Part shown: positions 4,240 through 60,968 of the stretch, piece after piece | Position numbering within the stretch: position 1 is the stretch's first letter | Layout: the number at the start of each line of letters is the position of its first letter | DNA from: Bacteroidota bacterium | GTDB taxonomy: Bacteria > Bacteroidota > Bacteroidia > B-17B0 > Aurantibacillaceae | Length of the DNA stretch: 64,000 nucleotides | Direction of reading: 5' to 3' | NCBI GenBank assembly: GCA_021156365.1 | Contig: JAJNDK010000002.1 | Span: 248,001-312,000 of the forward strand | Program-made: the position numbers and the translations under genes | The notes under the pieces: generated by a model | Told to the model about the DNA's origin: nothing | The model's database searches: none | The model's input: the letters and a program-made list of their open reading frames with translations, nothing else

Positions 4240-5391
4240 ATGAGCGAGCCTGTTTACCTGGATTATAATGCCACTACACCCATCGACGAGCGGGTACTGG
4301 AACACATGCTGCCTTTTCTGAAAAATAATTTCGGGAATGCTGCCAGCTCCACACATCAGCATGGATGGATAGCGAAACAGGCAGTAGACGATGCACGCAG
4401 GCAGGTGGCCTCGCTGATCGGGGCCGAAGAATCAGAAATTATTTTTACTTCGGGATCCACGGAAGCGATAAATCTATCCATTAAAGGTGTTTACGAGATC
4501 TATAAGAACAAAGGCAATCATATCGTAACGGTAAAAACGGAGCACAAAGCGGTATTGGATACCTGCGAATACCTTGCGAAAAAAGGAGCGGAGATAACGT
4601 ACCTGGATGTAGATGCAGAAGGCCTCATCGATCTGCAGCAACTGGAAAGCTGTATAACTGACAAAACGATAGTAGTAGCGGTGATGTATGCCAACAATGA
4701 AACCGGCGTCATCCAACCTATTGAGGAGATCGCGCAAATAGTACATGCAAAGAACAGCATTTTCTTTTGCGATGCTACACAGGCTATTGGTAAAGCAGAT
4801 GTGGATGTACTGGAATCCGGTATTGATCTGCTCTGTTTATCTGCACATAAATTATACGGACCAAAAGGTGTTGGAGCCTTGTATGTCCGCCGGAAAAATC
4901 CGCGCGTAACGTTAAGCCCTTTGATCCATGGAGGCGGTCACGAAAAAGGCCTGCGTTCCGGAACACTGAATGTACCCGGTATTGTAGCATTGGGCAAAGC
5001 CTGCGAACTGGCAAAAAAAGAAACCTGGGATAACAATACGAACATTTCCAAACTGCGTGCTTATCTCGAACACCAGTTGCTTGATATCCCCGGCATGCGG
5101 ATCAATGGCAGCACCCGCTCCCGTTTATACAATACAAGTAATATTTGTTTCTCCGGTCTCCCGATAGCTATCGGGACTGCTGCCAAACTCATCGCTGAAT
5201 GGAGCCGTCATTTTTCGGTTGCCTCGGGTTCTGCCTGCACTTCCGCAATCCCCGAGCCTTCACACGTGCTGCAGGCAATGGGTTTGAGTGAAGCCGACAG
5301 TTATGCTTCCGTACGTTTCAGCTTCGGTAAATACAATACACAGGAAGAAACGGAGCAGGTAGTGAAGATCATTAAAGGCACTTTGTTATAA
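4240..5391 (+). CDS. Cysteine desulfurase, IscS/NifS family (copy 1)
   Basis: 383 residues, PLP-dependent class V aminotransferase fold. It removes sulfur from L-cysteine and passes it on as persulfide for iron-sulfur clusters or tRNA thiolation. The PLP lysine is Lys204 in SAHKLYGPKG, and the persulfide cysteine is Cys333 in SGSACTS. Normal family length. The stretch between ICF and the active-site cysteine contains PIAIG, encoded exactly by the palindrome at 5160-5175, and this loop is three residues longer than in the second desulfurase of this window. No iscU, iscA or suf genes are nearby. It may serve the upstream flavoenzyme only by operon position; no direct link is evident. Confidence 0.93.
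   Translation: MSEPVYLDYNATTPIDERVLEHMLPFLKNNFGNAASSTHQHGWIAKQAVDDARRQVASLIGAEESEIIFTSGSTEAINLSIKGVYEIYKNKGNHIVTVKTEHKAVLDTCEYLAKKGAEITYLDVDAEGLIDLQQLESCITDKTIVVAVMYANNETGVIQPIEEIAQIVHAKNSIFFCDATQAIGKADVDVLESGIDLLCLSAHKLYGPKGVGALYVRRKNPRVTLSPLIHGGGHEKGLRSGTLNVPGIVALGKACELAKKETWDNNTNISKLRAYLEHQLLDIPGMRINGSTRSRLYNTSNICFSGLPIAIGTAAKLIAEWSRHFSVASGSACTSAIPEPSHVLQAMGLSEADSYASVRFSFGKYNTQEETEQVVKIIKGTLL
5160..5175. repeat. 16-bp palindrome inside a coding region (copy A)
   Basis: CCCGATAGCTATCGGG, a perfect palindrome. The same core occurs at 9462-9479 and 54270-54285, both intergenic. Here it lies in frame in the cysteine desulfurase gene and encodes PIAIG just before the active-site loop. Confidence 0.9.
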
Positions 5392-58184: not shown

Positions 58185-59507
58185 TTATACCTGCCAGTTT
58201 AGGATAAGTGTTTGCGTGGTGTTTTCATCCACTTTAAAACGCTCGTCTACTCTTTTTCCCAGCACCCATACAATTTCAGTGCCGGAACGAAGGATCCATT
58301 GTTGCTGCTTTTCAAAAATGTTCATTTTTTGCGCAATGAAAAAGTCGCTGAGCTTCTTAGAACCCTTCATTCCGAGTGGCTGAAAAGAATCTCCTTCTTT
58401 CCATCTTGTTAATCGTAAAGGAAAATCAAGCTTTTTTGCATCGACGCATGCCGTATAGACACCGTCCAAAACCACCGCTCCATCCTGCCGGTGAATAGCA
58501 AGGCTGATCGGATCGTTTATACTGCTTGTTGTTTCAGGTATTTCAAAAAAAGAGTCCGCATCCTGACCGGAAGCCGGGCGAATAATGATCCGGTCCCTGT
58601 CGAGAAGCAGTGTATGAGAAAAAGAATGAAATTGTTTTCCGGGCTGAAAGGTGTCTATGGATTCATTGAGCTGGCGAACCACATCCCCGTTAAAGCCAAA
58701 AGACCTCAGCACCTCGTGCAATAGCAATTCCCTGTATTCCAGGTGACGGATCTTTTTCAATTCGATACTTGTTTCATCTTTTTCAGTGTGAACGCATTCC
58801 CGTAACTTTCCTTCCATTGCCTCCGACAAAAGTGTATGGCTCTGCAGAAGTATATCCATTTCCCGTTTCATTGTTTCTTCAAGGGAAGGGTTAATCTCTT
58901 TGAGCAAGGGCAGCAGTTGTTTCCTTAGTTTATTACGAAGGTATTTTTCTTCTGTATTACTGCTGTCTTCCCGGTACGGAATGGCATTTTCGGAAATGTA
59001 AGCATCTATTTGTTCGCGTGAAGCAAAAAGCAAGGGGCGTACCACCGCATTCGATTTTTCAGGGATTCCTTTTAATCCATTGAGTCCTGAGCCCCGCAGC
59101 AGATTGATAAAAAATGTTTCGATCGCATCATTGGCATGGTGCGCTGTGAGAATATATGTAAAACCATTTTTTGCAAGCAGGTCATTGAACCATTGATAGC
59201 GGAGTTCCCGGGCGGCCATCTGAATAGAGCAATTCGTTTTTTCAGCATACTCCTTTGTCGGGAAACGGGTACTGATTACTTCAATATTTTTTTTCAGGAA
59301 ATACTCTTTCACAAAAGCGTCATCCCCCTCAGCTTCCTCTCCCCGCAAACCAAAATTGCAATGCGCAACGGAAAATGTATAGCCAGCTTCGATCAGCATA
59401 TGAGCAAGTGCCATGCTGTCTTTTCCTCCACTCACTCCCAGCAACAGCCGGTCTGTTTTTGCAAACAGCTTCTTTCTTTCGATATGCTGCAGGAATTCGT
59501 TTTTCAC
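58185..59507 (-). CDS. tilS: tRNA(Ile)-lysidine synthase
   Basis: 440 residues from the GTG at 59507; the frame up to 59534 adds nine residues across a -7-like TACCTTTA and is less likely. TilS modifies C34 of tRNA-Ile(CAU) to lysidine, which is essential for reading AUA. The PP-loop is GVSGGKDSMAL (Ser26-Ser31 region); LRGEEAEGDDAF and AHHANDAIET complete the ATP site, and the C-terminal domain follows (KLSDFFIAQKM). It heads a four-gene minus-strand run. Confidence 0.95.
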   Translation of the reverse strand: MKNEFLQHIERKKLFAKTDRLLLGVSGGKDSMALAHMLIEAGYTFSVAHCNFGLRGEEAEGDDAFVKEYFLKKNIEVISTRFPTKEYAEKTNCSIQMAARELRYQWFNDLLAKNGFTYILTAHHANDAIETFFINLLRGSGLNGLKGIPEKSNAVVRPLLFASREQIDAYISENAIPYREDSSNTEEKYLRNKLRKQLLPLLKEINPSLEETMKREMDILLQSHTLLSEAMEGKLRECVHTEKDETSIELKKIRHLEYRELLLHEVLRSFGFNGDVVRQLNESIDTFQPGKQFHSFSHTLLLDRDRIIIRPASGQDADSFFEIPETTSSINDPISLAIHRQDGAVVLDGVYTACVDAKKLDFPLRLTRWKEGDSFQPLGMKGSKKLSDFFIAQKMNIFEKQQQWILRSGTEIVWVLGKRVDERFKVDENTTQTLILNWQV

Positions 59508-59567
59508 GATATAAAGGTAGCTTATTGAAAGCAAATCACAACTTAACCGCTAATCCAGACGTTATCC

Positions 59568-59740
59568 TATATTCAACCCCTTCAGGGTTGTGGTTTTCTA
59601 CAACCCTTTTATTTATTCATATTCAAGCCCTTCAGGCTTGGATTAATGGAGGTATAAATTTAGCCGAACCCCGAATGGGGTTCAATATGAATAAAAAGAT
59701 AAAAACCATACTTTCCCAACCCTGAAGGGGTTGAATATAA
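59568..59740. repeat. Nested inverted repeat with four hairpins
   Basis: The outer arms 59568-59590 and 59718-59740 are exact 23-base reverse complements. Within them four short hairpins lie in series: CAACCC/GGGTTG at 59574-59590, CAAGCC/GGCTTG at 59624-59640, GAACCCC/GGGGTTC at 59666-59683 and CAACCC/GGGTTG at 59718-59734. The second and third also form an inverted pair with their flanks (TATTCATATT and its near complement). It occupies nearly the whole gap between tilS and pgk. No transposase is present; it resembles a REP- or MITE-like element. Confidence 0.85.
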
Positions 59741-59760
59741 AAAGGATCAGCAATCCTGGC

Positions 59761-60954
59761 TTACGCTTCAATGGCTTTTACACCCGGCAGCGTACCCTGC
59801 TCTATATATTCGAGTAGTGCACCACCACCTGTGCTTACATAGCTTACTTTGTCAGCGAGCTTGTATTTATTGATAGCAGCCACAGAATCCCCGCCTCCTA
59901 TCAGTGAAAAAGCTCCTTTCGATGTAGCATCCACGATACTGTCGGCAGCAGCTTTGGTGCCTGCTTCGAAACTGCTCATTTCAAAAACTCCCATCGGTCC
60001 GTTCCATAAAATGGTTTTGGATGCAGCGATCACTTCGTTGTATTTTTTGATGGTATCTTTCCCGATATCCAATCCCATCCAGCCATCCGGAATGGCATTG
60101 ATGGCGCACTCTTTTTTGCTGGCATCATTGGCAAAATTATCGGCGATCACAGCATCCGTTGGGATATACAGGTTCACTCCTTTTGCCTTCGCTTTTTCCA
60201 GTAACGATTTTGCAATTTCCAGGCGATCGTCTTCACACAGTGATTTCCCGATCTGCCCGCCTGTCGCCTTCACAAATGTAAACGCCATACCGCCGCCAAT
60301 AATGATATTATCCGCTTTGCTCAGCAATTGTTCGATAATCAGGATCTTGTCAGAAACCTTAGCTCCGCCTATGATGGCCGTAAAAGGCTTTTCACTCTGA
60401 TGAAGCACTTTATTGATGCTCGCCACTTCACCTGCCATCACATAACCCAGGCATTTGTGCTGTGCATCAAAATACTGTGCAATGATCGTGGTGGAGGCAT
60501 GTGCACGGTGGGCGGTACCAAAAGCGTCATTCACATAAAAATTTCCGTGTTTCGCCAGCTTCTGTGCAAAAGCCGGATCTCCCTTTTCTTCTTCTTTATA
60601 AAACCGAAGATTCTCCAGTAAGAGGACCTCTCCTGCCTTCAAGCCAGCCGACAATTGAAATGCTTCCTCCGAAACACAATCGCTTACAAATTTAATTTCT
60701 TTGCCCGTCAATGCCGAAAGATCTTTTACAATATGCTTCAGGGAGTACTTTTCAGTAGGCCCGTCTTTTGGCCTGCCCAAGTGCGACATCAGTACAAGGC
60801 TTCCACCATCCCCCAGTATTTTTTTGATAGTCGGCAGGGCAGCTTTGACGCGTGTGGCATCCGTTACCTCGAATTGTTCGTTCAGCGGAACATTAAAATC
60901 AACACGCATCACTACGCGTGTATTGGCAAAATTAAAATTGTCGATTGTTTTCAT
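59761..60954 (-). CDS. pgk: Phosphoglycerate kinase
   Basis: 397 residues from ATG at 60954. It converts 1,3-bisphosphoglycerate and ADP to 3-phosphoglycerate and ATP in glycolysis. [48 protein letters not shown] and the C-terminal [12 protein letters not shown] and [10 protein letters not shown] are conserved. A -7 box only six bases upstream predicts a leaderless mRNA. No other glycolytic gene is adjacent. Confidence 0.98.
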
Positions 60955-60960
60955 GGGGTG

Positions 60961-60968
60961 CAAAATTA
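60961..60968 (-). promoter_or_regulatory. Predicted -7 box for pgk
   Basis: TAATTTTG on the minus strand, six bases before the ATG at 60954 and directly behind the stop of the upstream gene. Confidence 0.5.

Follow-up and report, generated by a model that had tools for sequence, protein, structure and literature searches.

Four hairpins between tilS and pgk belong to a dispersed hairpin-doublet family tied to one clade of TnpA transposases

The gap between tilS and pgk in the window (the whole stretch of 64,000 nucleotides analysed here) holds four hairpins in the order A, B, B', A'. These are one copy of a repeat family that is dispersed in the source genome, whose members are built of hairpin doublets and are tied to one clade of TnpA proteins, and which probably owes its spread to a small transposase acting on single-strand DNA. 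The features are listed below in window coordinates, which are those of contig C16 minus 248000; R1 denotes a covariance model of the half-element.

58185 to 59534, minus strand: tilS (tRNA lysidine synthetase), an open reading frame above the cut-off of TIGR02432
59569 to 59640, plus strand: left doublet, consisting of tag ATATT and hairpin A, a spacer, then tag TTATTCATATT (59613-59623) and hairpin B
59574 to 59590, plus strand: hairpin A, CAACCC-CTTCA-GGGTTG
59624 to 59640, plus strand: hairpin B, CAAGCC-CTTCA-GGCTTG
59666 to 59739, minus strand: right doublet, B' then A', with the tag to the right of each hairpin, i.e. reversed; R1 match of 85.2 bits on the minus strand
59666 to 59683, minus strand: hairpin B', GAACCCC-GAAT-GGGGTTC
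59717 to 59733, minus strand: hairpin A', CAACCC-TGAAG-GGGTTG
59739 to 59757, minus strand: short terminator-like hairpin and T-run that follow the stop codon of pgk closely and border the element, read by eye
59761 to 60963, minus strand: pgk (phosphoglycerate kinase), an open reading frame matching the kinase part of NF010569, below the cut-off of that bifunctional model

The first-pass annotation had placed four hairpins here, with outer arms that are exact 23-base complements, and both statements were borne out. The arms at 59568-59590 and 59717-59739, of 23 nt each, are 100% complementary, and the four hairpins have stems of 6-7 bp and loops of 4-5 nt. The predicted RNA fold of 59540-59770 has an energy of -86.7 kcal/mol against -47.5 +/- 4.3 for shuffled sequences (z -9.2), and none of 200 shuffles folded as well; the shared hairpin motif is matched three times in the window, where 0.08 matches are expected. 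The inner hairpins had likewise been taken for an inverted pair, but B and B' are an inverted repeat in part only: tag and half-stem (59612-59630 against 59677-59695) are 89% complementary, while the stems, CAAGCC-type in B and GAACCC-type in B', are complementary at 8 of 12 positions. It was also observed that within 59584-59607 part of hairpin A can pair instead with CTACAACCC in the spacer; on the plus strand a T-rich sequence comes after this alternative stem, and the neighbouring genes lie on the minus strand.

A search of the whole genome with the hairpin pattern gave 13 motif matches, and none with the reversed control. Model R1 gave 23 matches at 11 loci, of which eight had supplied the model and three were new, with an inverted pair at each locus, although two of the partners are weak; the left doublet of the window is the best match in the genome at 89 bits, R1 having been built partly from the window copy. 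The locus on contig C1 has three hairpins, the third of which looks as if B' and A' had been fused. Longest-ORF calling places all 11 loci between genes, which are convergent at six of them, co-directional at five and divergent at none. The element is thus a short palindromic sequence with many dispersed intergenic copies, as REPs are, although 11 loci is well below the '>100 copies/genome' that is called usual for REPs in the accessible part of PMC2817692.

In both congeners pgk (88% and 84% tblastn identity) and tilS are likewise adjacent, tilS being present in all 25 genomes searched, and the element is missing from the gap in both. The gap measures about 226 bp in the source genome, about 143 bp in G002 and less than 60 bp in G001 (where the start codon is uncertain). 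The element is neither unique nor in a gap of equal length in relatives, the case that the first-pass annotation had named as a refutation. Similarly, the gap before bioD holds an element in the source genome, and in G002 it has none, with a CCCGATAGCTATCGGG palindrome in its place. The lysA-murF site did not serve for such a comparison, as the neighbouring gene was missing from the stretch of the congener. The congener gaps do not align base by base, and the boundary of an insertion therefore cannot be read from them. The perfect palindrome CCCGATAGCTATCGGG, of which the window has three copies, at 5160, 9463 and 54270, is another dispersed family.

The arrangement of the hairpins is defined by an AT-rich tag on one side of each: ATATT precedes A and TTATTCATATT precedes B, and the same is mirrored after B' and A'. 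Read by their tags the hairpins run forward, forward, reverse, reverse, that is, as two direct doublets facing each other. Nine elements of this genome had all four hairpins measured; in these, the two centres of a doublet lie 47-54 bp apart (18 doublets), and the distance between the two doublets is 39-88 bp. In an alignment of 15 halves the pairwise identity is 97% for hairpin A, 92% for the tag of B, 77% for hairpin B and 31% for the spacer, whose similarity is at the level of shuffled sequence (11 of 50 shuffles were as high). Given this high identity in the hairpins, the 47-54 bp spacing and the random spacer, hairpins and spacing are kept in this genome while the sequence of the spacer is free. 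Within the alignment of halves 97.8% of cells are locally paired, and 13 cells in which both sides have changed, all of them in hairpin B, are compensatory. The same alignment has no GTAG tag at A or B, nor is there a GT[AG]G tag at the hairpin foot as in REPs.

Long-range pairing between the arms was considered as the selected structure and rejected, the inner arms pairing better locally. For the outer arms long-range pairs and local stems are each formed at 106 of 108 positions, so hairpin A cannot decide between the two, whereas the inner arms pair at 71 of 108 positions over the long range and at 99 of 108 locally, which indicates that local hairpins are what is kept. In one 16-base hairpin the stem pairs at six of six positions.

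The doublet also occurs by itself outside the source genome. G020, of a different genus in the same family, has six R1 matches, which are halves on six contigs, and the five that were examined were all lone doublets by inspection. G021 has a full four-hairpin element as well as a lone doublet among the three dispersed places that were read. A REPIN consists of two inverted REPs, and here inversion is found at the level of the doublet, while lone direct doublets exist. At two loci, L136 and L137, regular hairpin arrays with steps of about 47-52 bp lie upstream of tnpA, in L136 with repeated spacers, and these arrays suggest tandem growth of the hairpin unit.

The source genome has three genes matching Pfam Y1_Tnp, one of which lies directly upstream of a four-hairpin copy. 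The start and the main part of this tnpA are in different frames, so that the gene is frame-broken in the assembly. The other two Y1_Tnp genes are class-2 RAYTs above the NCBIfam RAYT cut-off (L015 1180-1782, on G000:C7, and L016 1456-2034, on G000:C10, with YIHNNP and YIHQNP respectively, a subclass 2.6-like motif), and they are flanked by unrelated palindromes, GCGCGGATTTGTAATCCGCGC and a GCAGGATTTGCAATCCTGC type. These RAYT-flanking palindromes share a GGATTNNNAATCC core, which is absent from the window.

The relatives of the broken gene form a clade of proteins of 147-148 aa that start with MSTYTQI or nearly so and carry motifs of the types DHIH, WQ and YVKNQEEHH. With DH[IV]H, WQ, YxxxQxxHH, a length of about 148 aa and low copy number, they agree with TnpA(Y1) subclass 1.2, as judged by motifs, and for the copy in the source genome by those of its C-terminal part only. 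Both this motif set and its occurrence in Bacteroidota are given in the accessible part of the 2018 survey PMC6006769, which there tabulates 'no' for REP in subclass 1.2 and describes the subclass as 'generally without typical terminal IS200 secondary structure features'.

The protein from G021 scores 65.7 bits with the IS200/IS605 TnpA model NF033573, above its cut-off of 55, and 26.8 bits with the RAYT model NF047646, below its cut-off of 80; the YVKNQEEHH motif of the clade is likewise not of the YxxNP type found in RAYTs. At E <= 0.001 in alignment A3, the IS200 model matches all eight clade members and the RAYT model four of the eight (best E 8.9e-07). A profile search of the PDB gave eight matches, all named transposases, the best being ISHp608, and to E 10 it did not include the TnpA-REP structure 4er8, which the fold search did find: the predicted fold (pLDDT 89.9), of the HuH type, is nearest to ISDra2 and IS608 TnpA (Z about 14), followed by the E. 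coli-type TnpA-REP 4er8 (Z 10.5). Judged by its sequence, the associated enzyme is an IS200-branch TnpA with the subclass 1.2 motif and no classical RAYT. The loci do not have the layout of an IS200/IS605 insertion sequence, in which tnpA is enclosed by one-strand ends; in the clade loci that were read by eye, the flanking hairpin pairs are mutually inverted by their tags. The tnpA clade also occurs in records titled as Ignavibacteria-type, Balneola, Cloacimonadota and Spirochaetota MAGs (L194, L217, L220, L235, L241, L248), which is either wide spread or binning errors.

The association of hairpins with this clade was assessed in named genomes, which gave 431 relatives; the best 80 of these (L182-L261), all full length, were kept. 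A hairpin lies within 45 bp of the tnpA stop codon in 60 of 79 loci, against 8 of 144 control stretches, and 45 of 79 have a second one beyond it, at a distance of about 50 or 68 bp, against 2 of 144 (Fisher p < 1e-20 for the downstream counts). Within the same 45-bp limit upstream, a hairpin precedes the start in 43 of 78 loci and a pair in 34; with a limit of 60 bp these become 56 and 43 of 78. Six of the 80 were seed genes already seen with hairpins, and with these excluded a stop-side hairpin is found in 54 of 73 loci; pairs occur behind the gene in 39 of 73 and before it in 30 of 72, against 2 of 134 controls. The remaining 19 of 79 relatives have no hairpin within 45 bp of the stop. At both positions that immediately precede hairpin A, the base is T in 55 of 60 tnpA loci. 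The 50-bp doublet is the minority form behind tnpA (14 of 79; 9 of 73 without the seeds), and the 68-bp form, which in most cases includes a middle hairpin at about +40, is commoner (31 of 79), so that the spacing ruler is not universal.

A wider set, drawn from the family and from a few genomes at class level, comprised 73 tnpA loci of the subclass 1.2 type, after four loci fetched with R1 had been dropped. Doublets of similar stems spaced 44-66 bp apart occur in the 400-bp flanks of only 17 of the 73, a count that may be favoured by the choice of several of the genomes for their R1 matches; 16 were among the 60 higher-scoring loci and one, the locus of the source genome itself, among the 13 lower-scoring ones. 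Flanks 900-1300 bp away gave 0 of 73, and ten shuffles of each locus gave none. At the level of whole genomes (the clade taken as rows of at least 198 bits, the next row scoring 173, and the source genome left out), R1 matches were found in 6 of 7 family genomes with the tnpA clade and in 14 of 79 without it (Fisher p 0.0005). Some genomes go against this link: R1 finds nothing in G072, which does have the gene clade, 14 genomes have R1 matches and no clade, and G004 has eight matches and no Y1_Tnp hit. Distances between TnpA proteins and between hairpin sequences correlate weakly over 61 loci (r 0.21, Mantel p 0.006, shared ancestry uncorrected). Taken together, these counts tie a dispersed hairpin-doublet family to one TnpA clade.

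We think it likely that the hairpins are a REP-like non-autonomous element whose unit is the doublet and that a subclass 1.2 TnpA processes in single-stranded form, a biochemistry that we infer. The proposed unit is a direct doublet of A then B, with an ATATT-type tag 5' of each and centres about 50 bp apart, and two such doublets in inverted orientation would make up the four-hairpin element. The transposase would bind the hairpins in single-stranded DNA, and the tag would guide the cut made at the foot of the hairpin; A and B would act as left and right ends as in IS200/IS605, where on one strand each hairpin has its guide on the 5' side, and such processing could have spread the doublet. 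This one-strand geometry of A and B is closer to the ends of IS200/IS605 elements than to a REPIN with its inverted pair, as far as these are described in the accessible parts of PMC6006769, PMC3116915 and PMC8266576. In outline, then, the earlier suggestion of a composite REP mobilised by a Y1 transposase was sound: the search for further copies and for such a gene returned 11 dispersed loci, one of them abutting a Y1_Tnp gene, and a congener gap without these hairpins. What finds no support is the qualifier 'RAYT-type': the G021 enzyme scores above the IS200/IS605 TnpA cut-off and below that for RAYTs, and the RAYT genes of the source genome have other palindromes.

The copies in the source genome are probably immobile now, because the only clade transposase gene found there is frame-broken, unless that frame break is an assembly error. 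Against our preferred reading stands the fact that hairpin A is 97% identical between copies despite the broken gene; decay alone would not give such identity, which calls for a function in the host or for a break that happened very recently. The conservation may reflect a recent break, an assembly error, or use by the host at transcript ends. Also against it are the minority place of the 50-bp form behind tnpA, the 19 relatives with no hairpin near the stop, the low share of doublets in the wider set, the genomes in which R1 matches and gene clade do not go together, the weak correlation of TnpA and hairpin sequences, and the lack of a readable insertion boundary in the congeners. A host element at transcript ends, in which the hairpins shield pgk mRNA at its 3' end or aid termination and are conserved for that reason, is nevertheless an unlikely account of the family as a whole. 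It would explain why each of the 11 intergenic loci has at least one gene ending towards it, with none divergent (a chance of about 0.04 if a quarter of gaps were divergent), and it gains from the strong RNA fold, from the conservation of the hairpins beside a broken transposase gene, and from the other hairpins that can be seen by eye in the same gap of the congeners. However, pgk already has a short terminator-like hairpin ahead of the element (by eye), hairpin pairs of the same kind stand on both sides of transposase genes in other genera while the congener gaps lack them, and a fixed doublet spacing would not be expected of a terminator. The role in pgk mRNA stability that had been entertained at first is possible at the mRNA 3' end, as a secondary one.

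An ordinary REPIN that owes its spread to either of the genome's two class-2 RAYTs seems more improbable still. Both genes do score above the NCBIfam RAYT cut-off, and REPINs too, in the accessible part of PMC3116915, are dispersed between genes, with ends that are conserved and a spacer that is less so; but the palindromes at the RAYT genes are different ones, a four-hairpin copy abuts the IS200-branch gene instead, A and B have no GTAG tag, and the doublet is direct, not inverted. A recombination site was also among the first suggestions. The ordered hairpins with their inverted symmetry would suit a site for site-specific recombination, attC-like or similar, but this reading found no support: the whole window has no Rfam match at the gathering score, and the copies are scattered among unlinked genes. 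We regard it as the least credible of these readings.

A bolder version of the reading that we prefer has two parts: that the direct doublet is the smallest form of a mobile unit moving as single-strand DNA, an IS200-like element of about 75 nt with left- and right-end hairpins in which a molecular ruler replaces the body, and that subclass 1.2 TnpAs are a second, independent REP-making line, derived from the IS200 and not the RAYT branch and spread through Bacteroidota and some other phyla. We hold the two together to be conceivable but somewhat short of an even chance, since the 50-bp form is a minority within the clade.

A search of the literature, conducted mostly outside subscription journals, found no paper that assigns REP-like hairpins to subclass 1.2 TnpA or describes the doublet layout, and by term search neither RAYT nor transposase appears in the text of a 2025 REP survey (PMC12306157). 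As far as that literature shows, the unit of two hairpins at fixed spacing, and its link to a TnpA group tabulated as being without REPs, are new. Subclass 1.2 had no DNA partner in the survey that named it, and one of its clades now has a recurrent partner that can be put to the test, as a defined two-hairpin substrate on which to study how such enzymes choose their ends. This points to more than one origin of REP-like repeats from HuH single-strand transposases, and it may account for some of the ordered hairpin clusters in the intergenic DNA of Bacteroidota.

The element resembles the REP/REPIN (BIME) and RAYT systems, as described in the accessible parts of PMC2817692 and PMC3116915, in its short, tagged, intergenic and dispersed hairpins, in the inverted flanks around a Y1 transposase gene, and in a spacer that is less conserved than the hairpins. 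It differs from them in that its unit is a direct doublet with hairpins about 50 bp apart, two of which are inverted, in its tags (ATATT and TTATTCATATT, not GTAG), in a transposase of the IS200 branch and not of class 2, and in having 11 loci only.

In IS200/IS605 elements both guides lie on one strand. With these elements (IS608, ISDra2) the present system shares the TnpA family, fold and catalytic motifs, and also the presence of two hairpins with a guide just 5' of each hairpin foot, as set out in the accessible part of PMC6006769. Unlike them, it has its gene outside a left-end/right-end pair, with inverted doublets as flanks, and in the source genome a single broken copy of that gene. 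PATEs are gene-less, non-autonomous elements derived from IS200/IS605 that keep the hairpin ends, and the element in the window is like them in this general description. The transposase itself is like TnpA(Y1) subclass 1.2, as characterised in the accessible part of PMC6006769, in DHIH, WQ, YxxxQxxHH, a length of 148 aa and its occurrence in Bacteroidota; what sets it apart from the surveyed members of that subclass is that hairpins flank most genes of this one clade.
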